In this document: positions 1-37,987 of the stretch, in pieces | Layout: every line of letters begins with the position of its first letter | How positions within the stretch are numbered: position 1 is the stretch's first letter | NCBI GenBank assembly: GCA_937951345.1 | Contig: CALFCF010000046.1 | Span: 1 to 64,000 of the forward strand | Length of the DNA stretch: 64,000 nt | Direction: 5' to 3' | Origin: an uncultured Granulosicoccaceae bacterium | Lineage (GTDB): Bacteria; Pseudomonadota; Gammaproteobacteria; Granulosicoccales; Granulosicoccaceae | Notes under the pieces: generated by a model | The model's database searches: none | Told to the model about the DNA's origin: nothing | The model's input: only the letters and a program-made list of their open reading frames with translations | Program-made: the position numbers and the translations under genes

Positions 1-485
1 TCGTAGAAATCTACGGGTTGAGCTCAATCGAGTGAGCTGCGACGGCAGACGGGCACTGGTGGTGAATAGAAAACAGTGCGCGAACACCCACAGCGACGCT
101 AAAACTGCTTTTCTAACTGGAAATTGCCTAGTTTTCATCGTCACTGTTTTCGCCTTCGTGAATAGAGCAGGCTAGTACGCCTCCCAACCCCGATTCAGCA
201 GCGCGTCGCAGATGACTTTTATCACCGGGTAACGCACACCAGAACCTGTTGGCCGTAACACTTCTTTGAGTGGATATCGTGTGGACCGGAAAGCTGCATG
301 GTTTTAAAAACCTGGTTAGAGTGGTTACAGCACACCGAAGTATTCTATTAGCGTTGGTATTAGCGATTTCAATGTGTTAGAGAATTGACGTCGCACAATG
401 GCATTGAGTGATCGGGCGAAAGTCTTGTAGTACAGCATCGTAGTTGTTACATTCGTTTCCACAACGAACAGGAAAATGGAGACCT
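1..485. other. Intergenic region upstream of the BCCT transporter
   Basis: No convincing gene is seen here. Near the left edge there are two small palindromes: a CGTAG/CTACG hairpin at 2-15 and TTGAGCTCAA at 18-27. They could belong to the end of a gene outside the window. The last part must hold the promoter of the transporter, but I cannot single out a convincing -35/-10 pair. Confidence 0.5.
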
Positions 486-2136: not shown

Positions 2137-2953
2137 TATCGCAGTATGATAGGTAGTTCAGTGGCCAGGTATTCAGGGAGTTTCTATTTTGCAGCGAGCT
2201 TTCATTTTGAGCTGCGCCAATTTTAAAATTCCATTTACACAAACAGCAGATCCCGACGTTAGTTGATTGGAAAATTTTATTCAGAGATCCTTCGTATAAA
2301 ATTTATCTCACGCCGATGATTTCGCGGCTCTGAACAAGGTGCTCATCTGAAATTGGAGCACTTGACAACCGAGTGACGAATGTCTGTGTTTCAATCCGCA
2401 AAAAACCCTCCGTTTTGACTCCCATGTAATTTATCTTGTGCACGGTAAACTGAGTACAGGAAGAATGTCGTGTAGATAAACGCACAATTGATTAGCTGGG
2501 AACTTACGTAGAAGCCATCTCTAAATTGATCGGCGACGCCGAGTCCTGCACGCTGATCCTTCATTGTGTGCCGTTATGCGTTGTTCATTTAGTGAGTGAA
2601 ACTGCGCTGCTCGAGCGCCTCACCCCTTGCCTGAGAGCACAATCTTAATTTTGAGGTAGCTTCTACTTATTCAATGCTATCGCTTTTTCTTGCTTACAGT
2701 TGTTTCCGCCGGAAATCATTTCTGGACTTCTTTTGGTCCCGAACGAATACATAATCAGTAACTTCACGCGTGGCAAATCACACGCGGATAACTTATGTTC
2801 CGGCCCCATCTATTTGGGTGGAAACCATAAGGTGTCCGGAAATTTGAACTATCAGCTGCCCCCGTTCGCTAACTAATTGACTTTACATGCATAAGTCCGA
2901 GGCTGTTATTTGCCCAGAATTGCTCGAAATTCACCAAACAATAGTGATTTGGC
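2137..2953. other. Gene-free stretch holding a MITE-like repeat
   Basis: About 800 bases without a credible gene; the short ORFs on both strands resemble no family and lack start signals. It contains the MITE-like repeat at 2511-2663, a small inverted repeat CGCGTG/CACGCG at 2767-2786, and AACTTATGTTCCG at 2790-2802, which recurs at 4646-4658 on the far side of the HipBA module. Confidence 0.6.
2511..2663. repeat. MITE-like dispersed repeat, copy 1
   Basis: A 153-bp unit also found at 36738-36888. Its ends are imperfect inverted repeats: GAAGCCATCTCTAAATTGAT at the left, and GAAGCTACCTCAAAATTAAG at the right read on the other strand. The interior shares GCCGAGTCCTGCACGCTG, ACTGCGCTGCTCGAGCGCC and GCCTGAG-GCACAATCT with copy 2. 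It has no coding capacity. TA lies on both sides (2509-2510 and 2664-2665), which could be a target duplication, but copy 2 has none. The size and ends fit a non-autonomous miniature element. Confidence 0.75.
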
Positions 2954-2983: not shown

Positions 2984-3012
2984 TTGCTTTTATGTGTCAC
3001 GAAGGTACCAAT

Positions 3013-3372
3013 ATGCCTACTCCGACAACACCACCTAGCAAGGTGCGCCGAGCGCTGCGGTCGCTTGGGGCTGATATTCGCGATGCGCGCAAACGTCGTG
3101 CTTTATCCATGGAGACAGTTGCGGACAGGGCGTTCACTTCGCGTAAAACGCTTCAAAGAATCGAGCAAGGAGATTACAGCGTTAGTATTGGAATTTATGC
3201 TTCGGTGCTTAACGCACTCGGGTTGCTTGATGGGCTAACAGTACTGGCTGATCCTGCGAATGATGCAATTGGGATGGAACTGGTCAGGGCGAATCTTCCC
3301 CAGCGGGTGGGTTCTAAAAAGGTTGCGACCAGAAAACGTGGAAATAAAAAAGATGGTAGTGGTGACCAGTGA
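3013..3372 (+). CDS. HipB-like antitoxin (Xre/HTH_3 DNA-binding protein)
   Basis: Predicted antitoxin and transcriptional autorepressor of the following HipA kinase. The 119-residue protein has a Cro/C1-type helix-turn-helix in its first half (LGADIRDARKRRALSMETVADRAFTSR, then KTLQRIEQGD), as in HipB. The C-terminal tail is basic and rich in Lys, Arg and Gly. I start at the ATG at 3013, with AAGG a few bases upstream; an in-frame ATG at 2992 would add seven residues lying closer to the operator. The stop codon overlaps the hipA start by 4 bases (GTGA), so translation is coupled. A palindromic operator sits directly upstream. Confidence 0.85.
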   Translation: MPTPTTPPSKVRRALRSLGADIRDARKRRALSMETVADRAFTSRKTLQRIEQGDYSVSIGIYASVLNALGLLDGLTVLADPANDAIGMELVRANLPQRVGSKKVATRKRGNKKDGSGDQ

Positions 3373-4616
3373 GCGATATAGAAGTTTATATTTCGCTCGA
3401 TGGGTTCGACCAAAGAATTGGCACGCTGTTTCGGCAGCTCGCAAGAGGCAATGAGACGGTCAGTTTTGCTTATCATGATGACTGGCTTGGAAATTCTCAA
3501 CGTTTTTCACTTGAACCTGCTTTGCAAGTGGGCAAAGGACTATTCCATCCAAATAGTGAACGTGGAATTTTTGGATCAATAGGGGACTCCGCTCCTGACA
3601 CTTGGGGGCGAAGATTGATGCAGCGAGCTGAACGTCGAAGGGCTTTGATCGAATCGCGTCAACCACGAACATTGCTTGAAGCAGATTTTCTTTTGGGTGT
3701 TACCGATGTTTCGCGTCTTGGAGCACTTAGATTTAAGCAAGTTGATCAAAGCGAATTTCAGAAACCGATGGATGAAGGTGTACCTGGATTCATTCATCTG
3801 GGGCGGTTGTTGGACAGTGCCGACCGAATCGAACGTAATAGCGAAACTGATGAAGATCTTGATCTGATATTTGCACCCGGGTCATCTCTTGGTGGAGCAA
3901 GGCCAAAAGCGTCGGTTATAGATTCGCAAGGCAACTTGGCTATTGCTAAATTTCCCAAAGACACGGATGACTACCCAATTGAGACATGGGAGCATATTGC
4001 ACTGGTACTTGCGACACGTGCCGGAATAACGGTCGCCCGACATGAATTGCAAAAAATTAACGACAAGCCGGTTTTGCTATCGTGGCGCTTTGATCGAATT
4101 GGGCAAGAGCGGATTCCATTCCTCTCTGCCATGTCTTTATTACAGGCGAAAGACGGTGAGCGAGGAAGTTACGTGGAAGTCGTTGACGAACTCTCACAGC
4201 ACGGCGCAAACACAAAAGCAGATTCGGCAGAAATATTTCGACGCATGGTTTTTAATATCCTGGTGTCGAATGTTGATGATCACTTACGCAATCATGGTTT
4301 TCTTTGGACCGGTAAAAAGGGTTGGGTGTTGTCACCAGCCTATGACTTAAACCCAACACCGACCGACGTCAAACAGCGAATACTTAGCACTAATATCAGT
4401 CTTGAAGAGGGGACATGCTCAATTGAACTTGCGGTGTCGCAAGCCGAACTTTTTGGGCTAAGTTTAATTGAGGCTCGAAACGTGATTAGTGATGTTGCGG
4501 TAGCTGTGGCGACTTGGCGTGATGTTGCGAAAAGTGCTGGCTCAAGCAAATCTGAGCAAGATCGAATGTCCAGTGCCTTTGAGCATGATGATTTAATACA
4601 GGCGCTTAAGTGGTAA
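3369..4616 (+). CDS. HipA-family serine/threonine kinase toxin
   Basis: Toxin of a type II toxin-antitoxin pair. E. coli HipA phosphorylates glutamyl-tRNA synthetase; the target here is unknown. The 415-residue protein has the HipA N-terminal subdomain, then the GSSLGGARPKA loop (about residues 171-181), the catalytic NVDDHLRNH (301-309) and the metal-binding SPAYDLNP (322-329). All key residues look intact. The start is GTG, overlapping the antitoxin stop. The length is close to that of E. coli HipA (440). It differs clearly from the second HipA at 8.7-9.9 kb, so the two are not a recent duplication. Confidence 0.9.
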   Translation: MSDIEVYISLDGFDQRIGTLFRQLARGNETVSFAYHDDWLGNSQRFSLEPALQVGKGLFHPNSERGIFGSIGDSAPDTWGRRLMQRAERRRALIESRQPRTLLEADFLLGVTDVSRLGALRFKQVDQSEFQKPMDEGVPGFIHLGRLLDSADRIERNSETDEDLDLIFAPGSSLGGARPKASVIDSQGNLAIAKFPKDTDDYPIETWEHIALVLATRAGITVARHELQKINDKPVLLSWRFDRIGQERIPFLSAMSLLQAKDGERGSYVEVVDELSQHGANTKADSAEIFRRMVFNILVSNVDDHLRNHGFLWTGKKGWVLSPAYDLNPTPTDVKQRILSTNISLEEGTCSIELAVSQAELFGLSLIEARNVISDVAVAVATWRDVAKSAGSSKSEQDRMSSAFEHDDLIQALKW

Positions 4617-8355: not shown

Positions 8356-8691
8356 ATGGCTGTAAATCGTCCGTATACCAAGACCACATTAGAAGCCGCC
8401 AGGCTACTAGGCCAACTCATCAAACTGTCCAGAAAGAAGCACCGTATGTCTGAGAGCGAACTGGCAGCGCGTGCTCACATCGCCAGAAGCACGGTGCAGA
8501 AAATTGAAAAGGGTGACCCTTCAATAAATATCGGGCTGGTGTTCGAAGCTGCCAATGTTGTTGGTGTGGCATTGTTCAATACAAATGACTCACATGACTT
8601 GAGGCGACACAACGACTTTCTGACCGATCAGTTGACTTTGCTTACTCGTAAATCCAAAAAGGATGACAGTGAACTCAAAGATGACTTCTGA
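8356..8691 (+). CDS. HipB-like antitoxin (Xre/HTH_3), second module
   Basis: Predicted antitoxin and autorepressor for the following HipA. It has 111 residues with a Cro/C1-type helix-turn-helix (LGQLIKLSRKKHRMSESELA, then ARAHIARSTVQKIEKGDPSI at about residues 15-55). The C-terminal tail is charged. Its end overlaps the hipA start by 11 bases when the kinase begins at 8681. The gene lies inside the segment bracketed by repeats B and C. It shares only the fold with the first HipB. Confidence 0.87.
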   Translation: MAVNRPYTKTTLEAARLLGQLIKLSRKKHRMSESELAARAHIARSTVQKIEKGDPSINIGLVFEAANVVGVALFNTNDSHDLRRHNDFLTDQLTLLTRKSKKDDSELKDDF

Positions 8692-9943
8692 AAAGGAAGC
8701 TTTCGTGTGGGTTTGGCTGCCAGGAACAGTTGAGCCAGTGGTAGCGGGAAGAATATCTAAGGCCAGAGGCCAGTACCTTTTTAACTATGGACAATCCTAC
8801 CTTGCATTGGAGGATGCTATTGCACTACATGAGGAAGAGCTACCACTACGATCCGGGATTATCCATTCATTGCCAGGATTAACCATTGCCGGCTGCTTAC
8901 GAGATGGCGCACCGGATGCCTGGGGGCGTCGTGTCCTGGTGAATCGATTGTCGAATGATCCAACTTATACTGGCGAACTGAATGAATCGGATCAGCTTTT
9001 GTTTATGCTCCATTCAGGGTCAAACCGTACTGGCTCATTAGATTTTCAAATCTCGGCAACACGATACATGCCGCGAGTAAATGACTCAGGCACGTTGCAA
9101 GAGTTACTCAGTTCTGCTGACCGAGTTGAAAATGGAGCGCAACTGAGTTTAAGTTTAGATGCTGCATTAATACATGGCACATCAATTGGAGGTGCGCGGC
9201 CCAAAGCACATATTATGGGGTTAGATAAGCAGTACGTCGCTAAATTTTCTTCTCAATCGGACACACGATCTATTGTAAAGGCTGAGTACGTTGCAATGCG
9301 ATTGGCACAGAAGGTTGGTCTGAGTGTCGCGCCTGTTGAATATAAGCGTGTAGGGAATAAAGATGTATTGCTAGTTGAAAGATTTGATCGGGAATACTTT
9401 GAAAATGGTTGGCAAAGGAAAAGCGTTTTATCTGCTTTAACATTGTTAAAGCTTGATGAGATGATGGGCCGATACGCCAGTTACGAGGATTTAGCAGAGC
9501 TGATTCGATTAAAATTTAAAGATCCAAAACAAACGCTTGCCGAATTGTTTGGTCGAATGGTTTTTAATGTTTTAGTTGGCAATACTGATGATCATGCTCG
9601 AAACCATACAGCCTTTTGGGACGGGGATAAGTTGAGCCTGACCCCAGCTTTTGATATCTGTCCTCAGAGCAGAGCCGGTGGGGAGGCATCGCAAGCCATG
9701 AGAATAGTAGGACAAAAAAATCTAAGCCGGTTGGATGTTTGTATGCAAAGCGTTGGTCAGTTTGGGCTGAAAGATAAGGTTGCCTTAGATGTTATTAAAC
9801 AACAAATACAAGTAATAAAAAATCAATGGAGTTTGGTTTGCGACGAGGCTGATATGAGCGTGGTTGATCGAAACTTTCTTTGGGGACGGCAGATTTTTAA
9901 TCCATTTTCGGTTGAGGGGTTTGAGGAGCTGGTTTCCAGGTAG
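8681..9943 (+). CDS. HipA-family serine/threonine kinase toxin, second module
   Basis: Predicted toxin kinase of the second HipBA pair; its target is unknown. The 420 residues include HGTSIGGARPKA (about 166-176), catalytic NTDDHARNH (301-309) and TPAFDICP (321-328), so the active site is complete. It belongs to the longer HipA subgroup that begins MTSEKEAFVWVWLPG; that is why I start at 8681 rather than at the in-frame ATG at 8663. Neither start has a strong ribosome site, consistent with translational coupling to the overlapping antitoxin gene. Repeat C begins at 9945, just past the stop. Confidence 0.9.
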   Translation: MTSEKEAFVWVWLPGTVEPVVAGRISKARGQYLFNYGQSYLALEDAIALHEEELPLRSGIIHSLPGLTIAGCLRDGAPDAWGRRVLVNRLSNDPTYTGELNESDQLLFMLHSGSNRTGSLDFQISATRYMPRVNDSGTLQELLSSADRVENGAQLSLSLDAALIHGTSIGGARPKAHIMGLDKQYVAKFSSQSDTRSIVKAEYVAMRLAQKVGLSVAPVEYKRVGNKDVLLVERFDREYFENGWQRKSVLSALTLLKLDEMMGRYASYEDLAELIRLKFKDPKQTLAELFGRMVFNVLVGNTDDHARNHTAFWDGDKLSLTPAFDICPQSRAGGEASQAMRIVGQKNLSRLDVCMQSVGQFGLKDKVALDVIKQQIQVIKNQWSLVCDEADMSVVDRNFLWGRQIFNPFSVEGFEELVSR

Positions 9944-10011: not shown

Positions 10012-10346
10012 TGGTGGGCCCGGCAGGACTCGAACCTGCGACCAATGGATTCACTGTGTCCGAAGCTTTCGCAACGGAGTGGACTATCTCATCACCCGCA
10101 ATAAATTTAAACAGGCATTAATTGCTAGGGTGCGGGACGCTCTTGCCTGTTATTAAGAACACTTTAGTTCTCAGGTAGTCTCTGCACCTTCCAGAGGTGT
10201 ACCTCTGGCTTGGCTCAGGATTGCCATCAGCCCGATTTAACACGGCTGCTAAGGGTTTCCTGAATTCATCCCGTTCATTCTATATTTTTCAATATAGACG
10301 CACCATTTGATGAGTCCACTGCTCTAACCAACTGAGCTACAGGCCC
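10012..10346 (-). tRNA. ileX: tRNA-Ile(CAU), split by an intron
   Basis: Two exons, 10346-10310 (37 nt) and 10051-10012 (40 nt, CCA encoded), join to a normal 77-nt cloverleaf. The acceptor stem GGGCCTG pairs with the matching bases before CCA. The D arm (GCTCAGTTGGTTAGAGC), anticodon stem GTGGA/TCCAT with loop CTCATAA, and T arm (GCAGGTTCGAGTCCTGC) are all intact. The CAU anticodon in this sequence context marks the isoleucine tRNA that needs lysidine, not a methionine tRNA. The 258-nt intron interrupts the loop right after the anticodon. The gene lies next to rpoD, as ileX does in E. coli. Confidence 0.92.
10052..10309 (-). ncRNA. Group I intron in the tRNA-Ile anticodon loop
   Basis: A self-splicing ribozyme, probably subgroup IC3 like the Azoarcus tRNA-Ile(CAU) intron, inserted at the same kind of site. 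The 5' exon ends in CAU and the intron carries GUG at 10303-10301 as guide, giving the required U-G pair at the splice site. P2 is a CTATATT/AATATAG hairpin with a GAAA loop (10297-10280). The Q-like element lies at 10222-10207, a P6-type hairpin CCAGAGGT/ACCTCTGG at 10208-10191, the R element GGTGCAGAGACTACC at 10188-10174 and the S element GAGATAGTCC at 10090-10081. P3 can form from TTCAGG and CCTGAG. The last intron base is G. It has no ORF inside. It is longer than the roughly 205-nt Azoarcus intron because of extra sequence in the P8 region. Confidence 0.92.
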
Positions 10347-10438
10347 GATGCCGGTATTGTAGCTCACTATTCAATGCAAGTCTGGAATATTCAACCTTCG
10401 GAGCTTATGTGATTATGAAGTGATATATAATCTATTGT

Positions 10439-36737: not shown

Positions 36738-36888
36738 GAAGCCGTCTCAAAATTGATCGGGAACGCCGAGTCCTGCACGCTGCCCTACGTTGTGTGCCGT
36801 TCTGTACCGCTCATACTGTGTGTAAACTGCGCTGCTCGAGCGCCACAAGCTTTGCCTGAGCGCACAATCTCAATTTTGAGATGGTTTC
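36738..36888. repeat. MITE-like dispersed repeat, copy 2
   Basis: A 151-bp partner of 2511-2663. The left end is GAAGCCGTCTCAAAATTGAT; the right end read on the other strand is GAAACCATCTCAAAATTGAG. These ends match better than in copy 1, so this copy may be younger. Similarity may extend further outward: CTTACTCG on the left is mirrored by CGAGTACTT on the right. It lies in the 360-base gap between the AlgJ-like gene and rmlA, which otherwise holds only the rmlA leader. Confidence 0.78.
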
Positions 36889-37069: not shown

Positions 37070-37987
37070 ATGAAAGGAATTATTCTGGCCGGTGGATCGG
37101 GAACTCGCCTATACCCGATCACTCAGGCTGTTTCAAAGCAACTCTTGCCAGTCTATGACAAACCGATGATCTACTATCCGATCAGTACGCTTATGCTTGC
37201 TGGTATACGGGAAGTTTTGATTATTTCAACACCTGTTGATACACCGCGTTTTGAACATCTGATCGGTGACGGCTCGCAATGGGGCATGCAAATATCCTAC
37301 GCAGTGCAAGAATCACCAGACGGTCTTGCGCAGGCATTTCTGATCGGCGAGGCCTTTATCGGTTCAGATCCTTGTGCACTGGTATTAGGTGATAATATTT
37401 TTTACGGGCATGATCTGAGCAACTTGCTGACTAGTGCTGCCTCTCTTGAACAGGGTGCACGCGTATTTGCCTACAGAGTAAGTGATCCTGAGCGCTACGG
37501 TGTTGTTGAATTTGATGAGTTAGGCCGTGCGATTTCTATTGAAGAAAAACCCGAAAAACCGAAATCGAACTATGCAGTTACCGGCCTGTATTTTTATGAC
37601 AATCAGATTGTCGATATTGCTAAATCTGTTAAACCCTCTGCACGGGGAGAGCTGGAGATAACCAGCGTCAATCAAGCGTATCTGGAGCAAGGCTCACTGG
37701 GAGTTGAAGTCATGAGTCGCGGATTTGCGTGGCTTGATACCGGCACGGATAAGTCTCTGCTTGAAGCAGGACAGTTTGTTGAGACGCTGGAGCGTCGGCA
37801 GGGGTTAAAGATATGTTGCCCGGAGGAGATCGCCTGGCGACAGGGCTGGATTGGTGATGATCGACTTGAAGTTCTGGCCGGTGCGTTGTCAAAGAATCAA
37901 TATGGCAGCTATTTGAAGTCTTTGCTTGAAGAAGATAGCCGCTCGGTGAATGTAGAGAATACCGTATTGAAAGTTGTCAATGGTTAG
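37070..37987 (+). CDS. rfbA: Glucose-1-phosphate thymidylyltransferase
   Basis: Makes dTDP-glucose from glucose 1-phosphate and dTTP, the entry to dTDP-rhamnose and other dTDP-sugars. The 305-residue protein starts with [20 protein letters not shown], then [17 protein letters not shown], and has [32 protein letters not shown] and [14 protein letters not shown]. All nucleotidyltransferase residues look intact. The usual partners rfbB, rfbC and rfbD are absent from the window, so either they lie elsewhere or another dTDP-sugar is made. Confidence 0.95.

Follow-up and report, generated by a model that had tools for sequence, protein, structure and literature searches.

Short inverted-repeat elements in a Granulosicoccaceae genome carry a folded core that covariance models relate to ERIC

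The two short repeats present in a 64,000-nucleotide stretch of DNA from an uncultured Granulosicoccaceae bacterium (the whole of which is referred to here as the window) belong to a true family of miniature inverted-repeat transposable elements (MITEs), i.e., non-autonomous transposons, and by covariance modelling this family is placed as a divergent branch of an ERIC-type superfamily. We consider it probable that the pair are non-autonomous MITEs of this superfamily, with a core set on swapped ends and an IS5-family transposase supplied in trans. The points of interest are the wide occurrence of the core, the exchangeability of the ends and the link to IS5 found in Pseudomonas. The features of the two copies are given below, R1 being a covariance model based on the core, whose training set includes two other copies from the same genome and no ERIC sequence.

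2511..2663, core sense on the minus strand: copy 1, whole element (sequence, BLAST and model R1)
2511..2529, no strand: copy 1, left terminal inverted repeat (sequence, end pattern)
2645..2663, no strand: copy 1, right terminal inverted repeat (sequence)
2509..2510: TA directly to the left of copy 1, putative target duplication
2664..2665: TA directly to the right of copy 1, putative target duplication
2541..2647, minus strand: copy 1, folded core (model R1, 48.2 bits, default filters)
36738..36888, core sense on the minus strand: copy 2, whole element (sequence, BLAST and model R1)
36738..36756, no strand: copy 2, left terminal inverted repeat (sequence, end pattern)
36870..36888, no strand: copy 2, right terminal inverted repeat (sequence, end pattern)
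36768..36872, minus strand: copy 2, folded core (model R1, 53.4 bits, default filters)

The original prediction of two copies with imperfect inverted ends and no coding capacity agrees with what was found: the copies are 82% identical by BLAST, their 19-bp ends differ from each other at 4 of 19 positions in copy 1 and at 2 of 19 in copy 2, and an ORF check of the window found no reading frame of 80 or more amino acids across either of them. Copy 1 is bordered by TA on both sides and copy 2 by TG and GA. The neighbours of copy 1 are a BCCT transporter gene on one side and a HipB/HipA-type pair on the other. Copy 2 is flanked by an AlgX-like gene and by a nucleotidyltransferase gene of the rfbA/rmlA type (NTP_transferase, 37070–37984), which supports the claim that one copy adjoins rfbA. 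The further suggestion that it could affect transcription there is unsupported, with no promoter- or terminator-like sites inside either copy and no clear orientation bias, and any effect of copy 2 on rfbA would be incidental. A larger duplicated region as the source of both copies was rejected, since their flanks differ.

The family was characterized in the draft assembly of the same genome (4.49 Mb, 115 contigs), where BLAST gave 68 matches, the best 40, scored out of 74 candidates, lying at separate places with E ≤ 4.6e-19. The search for the ends across the genome, which had been proposed as a check, gave 123 matches against 2 in a reversed control, so further copies do exist, and both ends were present in 54 of the 65 loci fetched, the other 11 being left out as cut by contig ends, truncated or degenerate. 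The family therefore comprises at least 54 paired-end copies, and the expected dozens in the genome are there. These copies measure 89–197 bp, with peaks at 127 bp (9 copies) and 153–155 bp (21 copies), and their inverted ends, of the GAAGCCATCTCAAAA type, are of about 19 bp; the 127-bp form is without the stretch between two similar CTGCGCTGCTC motifs, and in some longer copies a 14-bp unit is repeated. Of the 54 copies, 46 have T and 42 have A at the left border, and 48 have T and 45 have A at the right; a CTAG-like context is also favoured, though less strongly. TA stands on both sides in 28 copies and on one side only in 21. Among the fetched loci, no empty insertion site was found. The description of the repeats as MITE-like, multi-copy and non-coding is supported by number, size, inverted ends and the lack of reading frames in the window copies. 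REP and REPIN elements are palindromes of 20–40 bp spread by a RAYT protein, a type with which the size and ends of the window family do not agree.

An ORF of at least 100 amino acids is overlapped by 5 of the 49 copies with usable flanks. Neighbouring genes are co-directional at 24 copies, divergent at 13 and convergent at 11, compared with a background of 40, 13 and 16, respectively. Among 22 co-directional cases the core is in sense orientation in 10 and antisense in 12, and this lack of a strand preference makes a regular function of the core within the mRNA of adjacent genes less likely.

The conserved interior that had been noted is indeed common to both copies, and beyond what was then described it is a folded core related to ERIC. 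Over about 108 nt its architecture consists of a CAAGGCG box, a variable complementary stem, a hairpin of the form GTTTAC-loop-GTAAAT, the partner stem and a CAACGC box; the boxes are fixed and the stems differ between hosts but stay complementary. In a MAFFT alignment of 21 cores, 83.4% of the cells in a 35-pair structure are standard pairs, a value describing the copies that fit, since 9 of 30 candidates had been left out as near-duplicates or as not fitting the fixed spacing. The covariation score of these 21 cores is 0.440, compared with 0.138 after shuffling and at most 0.143 when slid by 1–3 columns, and changes on both sides are seen in 23 of the 35 pairs. Pair exchange was followed in fixed-spacing copies only, one from each of 65 genomes out of 107 labelled: the two boxes are joined by a pair that is GC in 37 of them, AT in 25, GT in 2 and TA in 1. 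At those hairpin pairs that the search anchor does not fix, TA, CG, AT and GC replace one another. The anchor itself fixes several hairpin letters, and the constancy of those letters is therefore uninformative.

The relation to ERIC was approached with two reciprocal models. Run without filters, R1 recognizes 10 of 12 ERIC loci at 21.9–44.7 bits, with alignments over the full length: one of E. coli (21.9 bits, missed under default filters), three of Enterobacter (44.7, 38.4 and 31.8 bits) and those of six enterobacterial plasmid records (27.6–37.8 bits). A degenerate Enterobacter copy also aligns, but its 17.3 bits are marginal because the background, which does not exceed 11.9 bits over 45 kb of K-12, rises to 15.2 bits in a GC-rich part of locus L340. 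The twelfth ERIC BLAST place (34 nt) lies elsewhere in this locus, and R1 has no match there. The second model, R2, was built from nine ERIC copies only; at E ≤ 0.01 it picks up 46 of the 86 non-ERIC loci, with up to 50.6 bits against at most 12.2 bits in the K-12 control and up to 15.1 bits in off-core stretches. Together the two models make a strong case for the ERIC link of the superfamily as a whole. R2 has no match at the core of copy 1 and gives a good copy from the same genome (L068) 17.1 bits, within 2 bits of the background; R1, by contrast, scores the window copies at 53.4 and 48.2 bits, and their ERIC link therefore runs through R1.

The likeness to ERIC (or IRU) lies in this common core architecture, in the 127-bp size class to which 9 of the 54 copies belong, and in TA termini, which ERIC also has according to the portion of PMC2229807 that describes it. 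The terminal repeats and stems differ from those of the window family, which was rejected as ERIC proper on its own ends and on the R2 results for copy 1 and L068. In Rfam searches of 11 loci, a match at the element was obtained only in ERIC copies, namely to V_AS5 (RF02818, Vibrio RNA AS5), which matches two Enterobacter copies over positions 1–129; the scores, 42.5 and 40.8 bits, do not reach the model's gathering score of 96. Because of these two matches V_AS5 is probably a transcribed relative of ERIC. It matches none of nine non-ERIC loci at E ≤ 0.1, and a separate search of six loci gave no Rfam match at E ≤ 1.

Outside its own genome the repeat was matched by BLAST, over 57 genomes in all, only in a member of another genus of Granulosicoccaceae (G003), where the inner boxes are kept and the ends and one inner stem are changed yet still complementary; in this genome the core element was also seen in tandem arrays with a spacing of about 141 bp (L070/L098). 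A plain hairpin pattern, scanned over 84,980 species at one genome apiece, yielded 87 stretches, 76 of which have an R1 match at E ≤ 0.01, part of these being training sequences. The hosts include Oligoflexales and Oligoflexia MAGs, several gammaproteobacterial MAGs, Legionella waltersii, Pseudomonas, Vogesella, Rheinheimera and Alishewanella. The other 11 stretches, among them those in Paenibacillus (L101) and Bathyarchaeota (L149, L174), lack an R1 match at that threshold and were dismissed as chance. Viral spread was likewise rejected, with 0 pattern stretches in viral contigs. A locus in a Coriobacteriales MAG (L169) scores 40.8 bits with R1 and may be a binning error. Rheinheimera and Alishewanella (L109, L112, L144, L150, L159, L171) apparently share an orthologous copy of the core, which lies upstream of the start of one and the same gene and may have been domesticated.

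Among 369 genomes of the class R1 has matches at E ≤ 0.001 in 148, and among 398 genomes of the phylum in 106, of which 62 lie outside the class; in these scans no more than the best 9–10 matches were scored per genome, and those listed score about 65–103 bits. At E ≤ 0.1, with the best 150 candidates scored, two Oligoflexia-type MAGs have 56 and 60 matches, Pseudomonas benzenivorans 61, a gammaproteobacterial MAG 54, L. waltersii 12, G003 13 and G001 8; G002, a genome of the window's own genus, has no matches.

Evidence for swapped ends may be obtained from the flanks of these cores. A clear outer inverted repeat is present in 59 of 111 cores with enough flank (some places being held in two loci and counted twice), compared with 3% for arms mixed between elements. 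When sorted by the 9-mers that they share, the end repeats form roughly 27 groups, of which a few are doubtful (arrays or single weak cases). Two end types occur within one genome in both P. benzenivorans and L. waltersii. A P. benzenivorans copy is 77–84% identical at the DNA level, in the core only, to copies from Halomonas, P. tremae and P. cerasi, which carry ends unlike its own, and it has both core and ends in common with a P. veronii copy. In a further genome (G402; L271, L273 and other listed places) end-to-end palindromes of about 44–74 bp with TAGGGNCTGTTGACAATTC ends and no core were observed.

A transposase gene with matching termini, which the original prediction had proposed to look for, did not emerge in the genome of the window: its two DDE_Tnp_1 places are not bracketed by the family ends, the best partial matches there having 4 mismatches in 15 and not enclosing the gene, and no autonomous element surrounds a single end among the 100 of 123 end matches listed. 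The draft assembly may lack the transposase of this family. Nor were autonomous elements with SW_17/CRAIB_MAG95 ends found among the loci looked at. The one IS partner found for superfamily ends comes from P. benzenivorans, where the end TAGCAGGCYGTTGAAAAAC has 115 matches against 1 in the control and where an IS5-family transposase with DUF772 and DDE_Tnp_1 parts, interrupted by an IS21-family insertion, lies between one pair of such ends. The end region of this bracketed element is 92.4% identical to elements annotated as ISPst12, of the IS5 family. Two intact ISPst12-like copies (1330 and 1331 bp) have perfect 15-bp ends CAGGCCGTTGAAAAA, equal to those of the P. benzenivorans superfamily members, and 4-bp borders with a central TA (ATAA/ATAA and CTAG/CTAG). 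In the interior between the 15-bp ends no similarity of IS and MITE was seen; the autonomous IS, at about 1330 bp, is without the core, and its ends are not those of the window family. The borders were compared in 22 P. benzenivorans MITEs taken from the 30 loci obtained: the two 4-bp borders are identical in 11 of them, against a mean of 6.1 after shuffling (P 0.0045), and TA stands on either side in 19. A comparable element is MITEPsy1 of Pseudomonas syringae, which, according to PMC3189936, is small, listed as "IS5?" and shown to transpose with duplication of CTAG or YTAA; its published ends are unlike those of the window family.

A fold acting as RNA or as one DNA strand should give more G.U-type than A.C-type mismatches. 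In the inner stem of model-found copies the ratio is 38 to 8 (P 9e-6), although finding copies by a pair model could itself favour G.U; the tendency is the same but not significant in pattern-found copies (8 to 5) and in BLAST-found ones (6 to 2), and the terminal repeats are balanced at 21 to 19. As with pair exchange, these counts concern fixed-spacing copies. Judged from such substitutions, strand-specific folding of the core is likely.

Several other explanations of the family have to be weighed. Size, ends, TA borders and copy number are all typical of an ordinary MITE, formed by internal deletion of one local IS, with a functionless leftover interior and horizontal spread; we regard this as quite unlikely, however, given that the same core is found under many end types and that the sole identified IS, ISPst12, has just its ends in common with the MITE. 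It is unlikely, too, that the ends were never borrowed and are the outer stem of one evolving hairpin drifting by compensatory change, in which case different ends need not mean different transposases. Inner stems do drift in this manner with complementarity kept. Against this reading, cores that are close relatives of one another are found with ends that are unrelated, and in Pseudomonas the agreement of the ends with ISPst12 extends over 15 bp at each side. In addition, G.T and A.C mismatches are in balance in the terminal repeats, which is not the case in the inner stems of model-found copies. That the wide family is in part an artefact of a structure-based model collecting unrelated hairpins seems very improbable: matches beyond the first set came from the model and background scores go up to 15.2 bits, but the first wide set rests on a plain sequence pattern confirmed by R1 at 76 of 87 loci (some being training sequences), and the matches listed in the class and phylum scans stand far above that background.

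Under the reading that we favour, that of a core on swapped ends mobilized by an IS5-family enzyme, a DDE transposase with CTAG/YTAR-type targets would act in trans on the outer 15–20 bp, and the core would be a module that has changed ends repeatedly, travelling on borrowed transposon ends. With less certainty, the core may be retained since its single-strand fold, as RNA or single-stranded DNA, helps the element persist. A broader and more tentative proposal, to which we would not yet commit ourselves, is that ERIC is one branch of a superfamily extending through much of Pseudomonadota into Oligoflexia, whose one-strand-folding core works as RNA or single-stranded DNA and is a selfish end-swapper; repeatedly exchanging transposon ends, it would parasitize whichever IS5-type transposase the host has.

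ERIC is widely used for typing, and its occurrence in Gammaproteobacteria is the subject of a study by Zo (2011). According to PMC2229807, ERIC was described in 1990–91, and similarity between the ends of bacterial repeats and those of IS had not been sought or found, RUP excepted. The range given for ERIC in the relevant part of PMC10969869 is Enterobacteriaceae and Vibrionaceae, and the open-licence papers searched yielded no literature on the wider core family. If ERIC belongs to a superfamily whose other members wear IS5-family ends, what moves it becomes testable, and a core kept by MITEs whose ends are unrelated would clearly exemplify a passenger that changes its vehicle.

Other features were noticed in the window. 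Another repeat family, whose elements measure about 249 bp and end in CTAGCCTGCTCT and AGAGCAGGCTAG, is present in 14 fetched sources (window positions 1–175; L051 28–276, L046, L027, L015 and others) and often abuts an ERIC-like element at CTAG. A group I intron (Rfam RF00028, 76.7 bits) lies at 10060–10321 on the minus strand, with tRNA-like flanks at about 10012–10350; it seems to split the anticodon loop of a tRNA, by eye tRNA-Ile(CAU), and ARAGORN reported no tRNA over the window. Two HipB/HipA-type modules are found at 2992–4616 and 8356–9943, and the direct repeats near them (4774/5849 and 5786/9941) resemble the 3' end sequence of the split tRNA and may represent attachment-site duplications.
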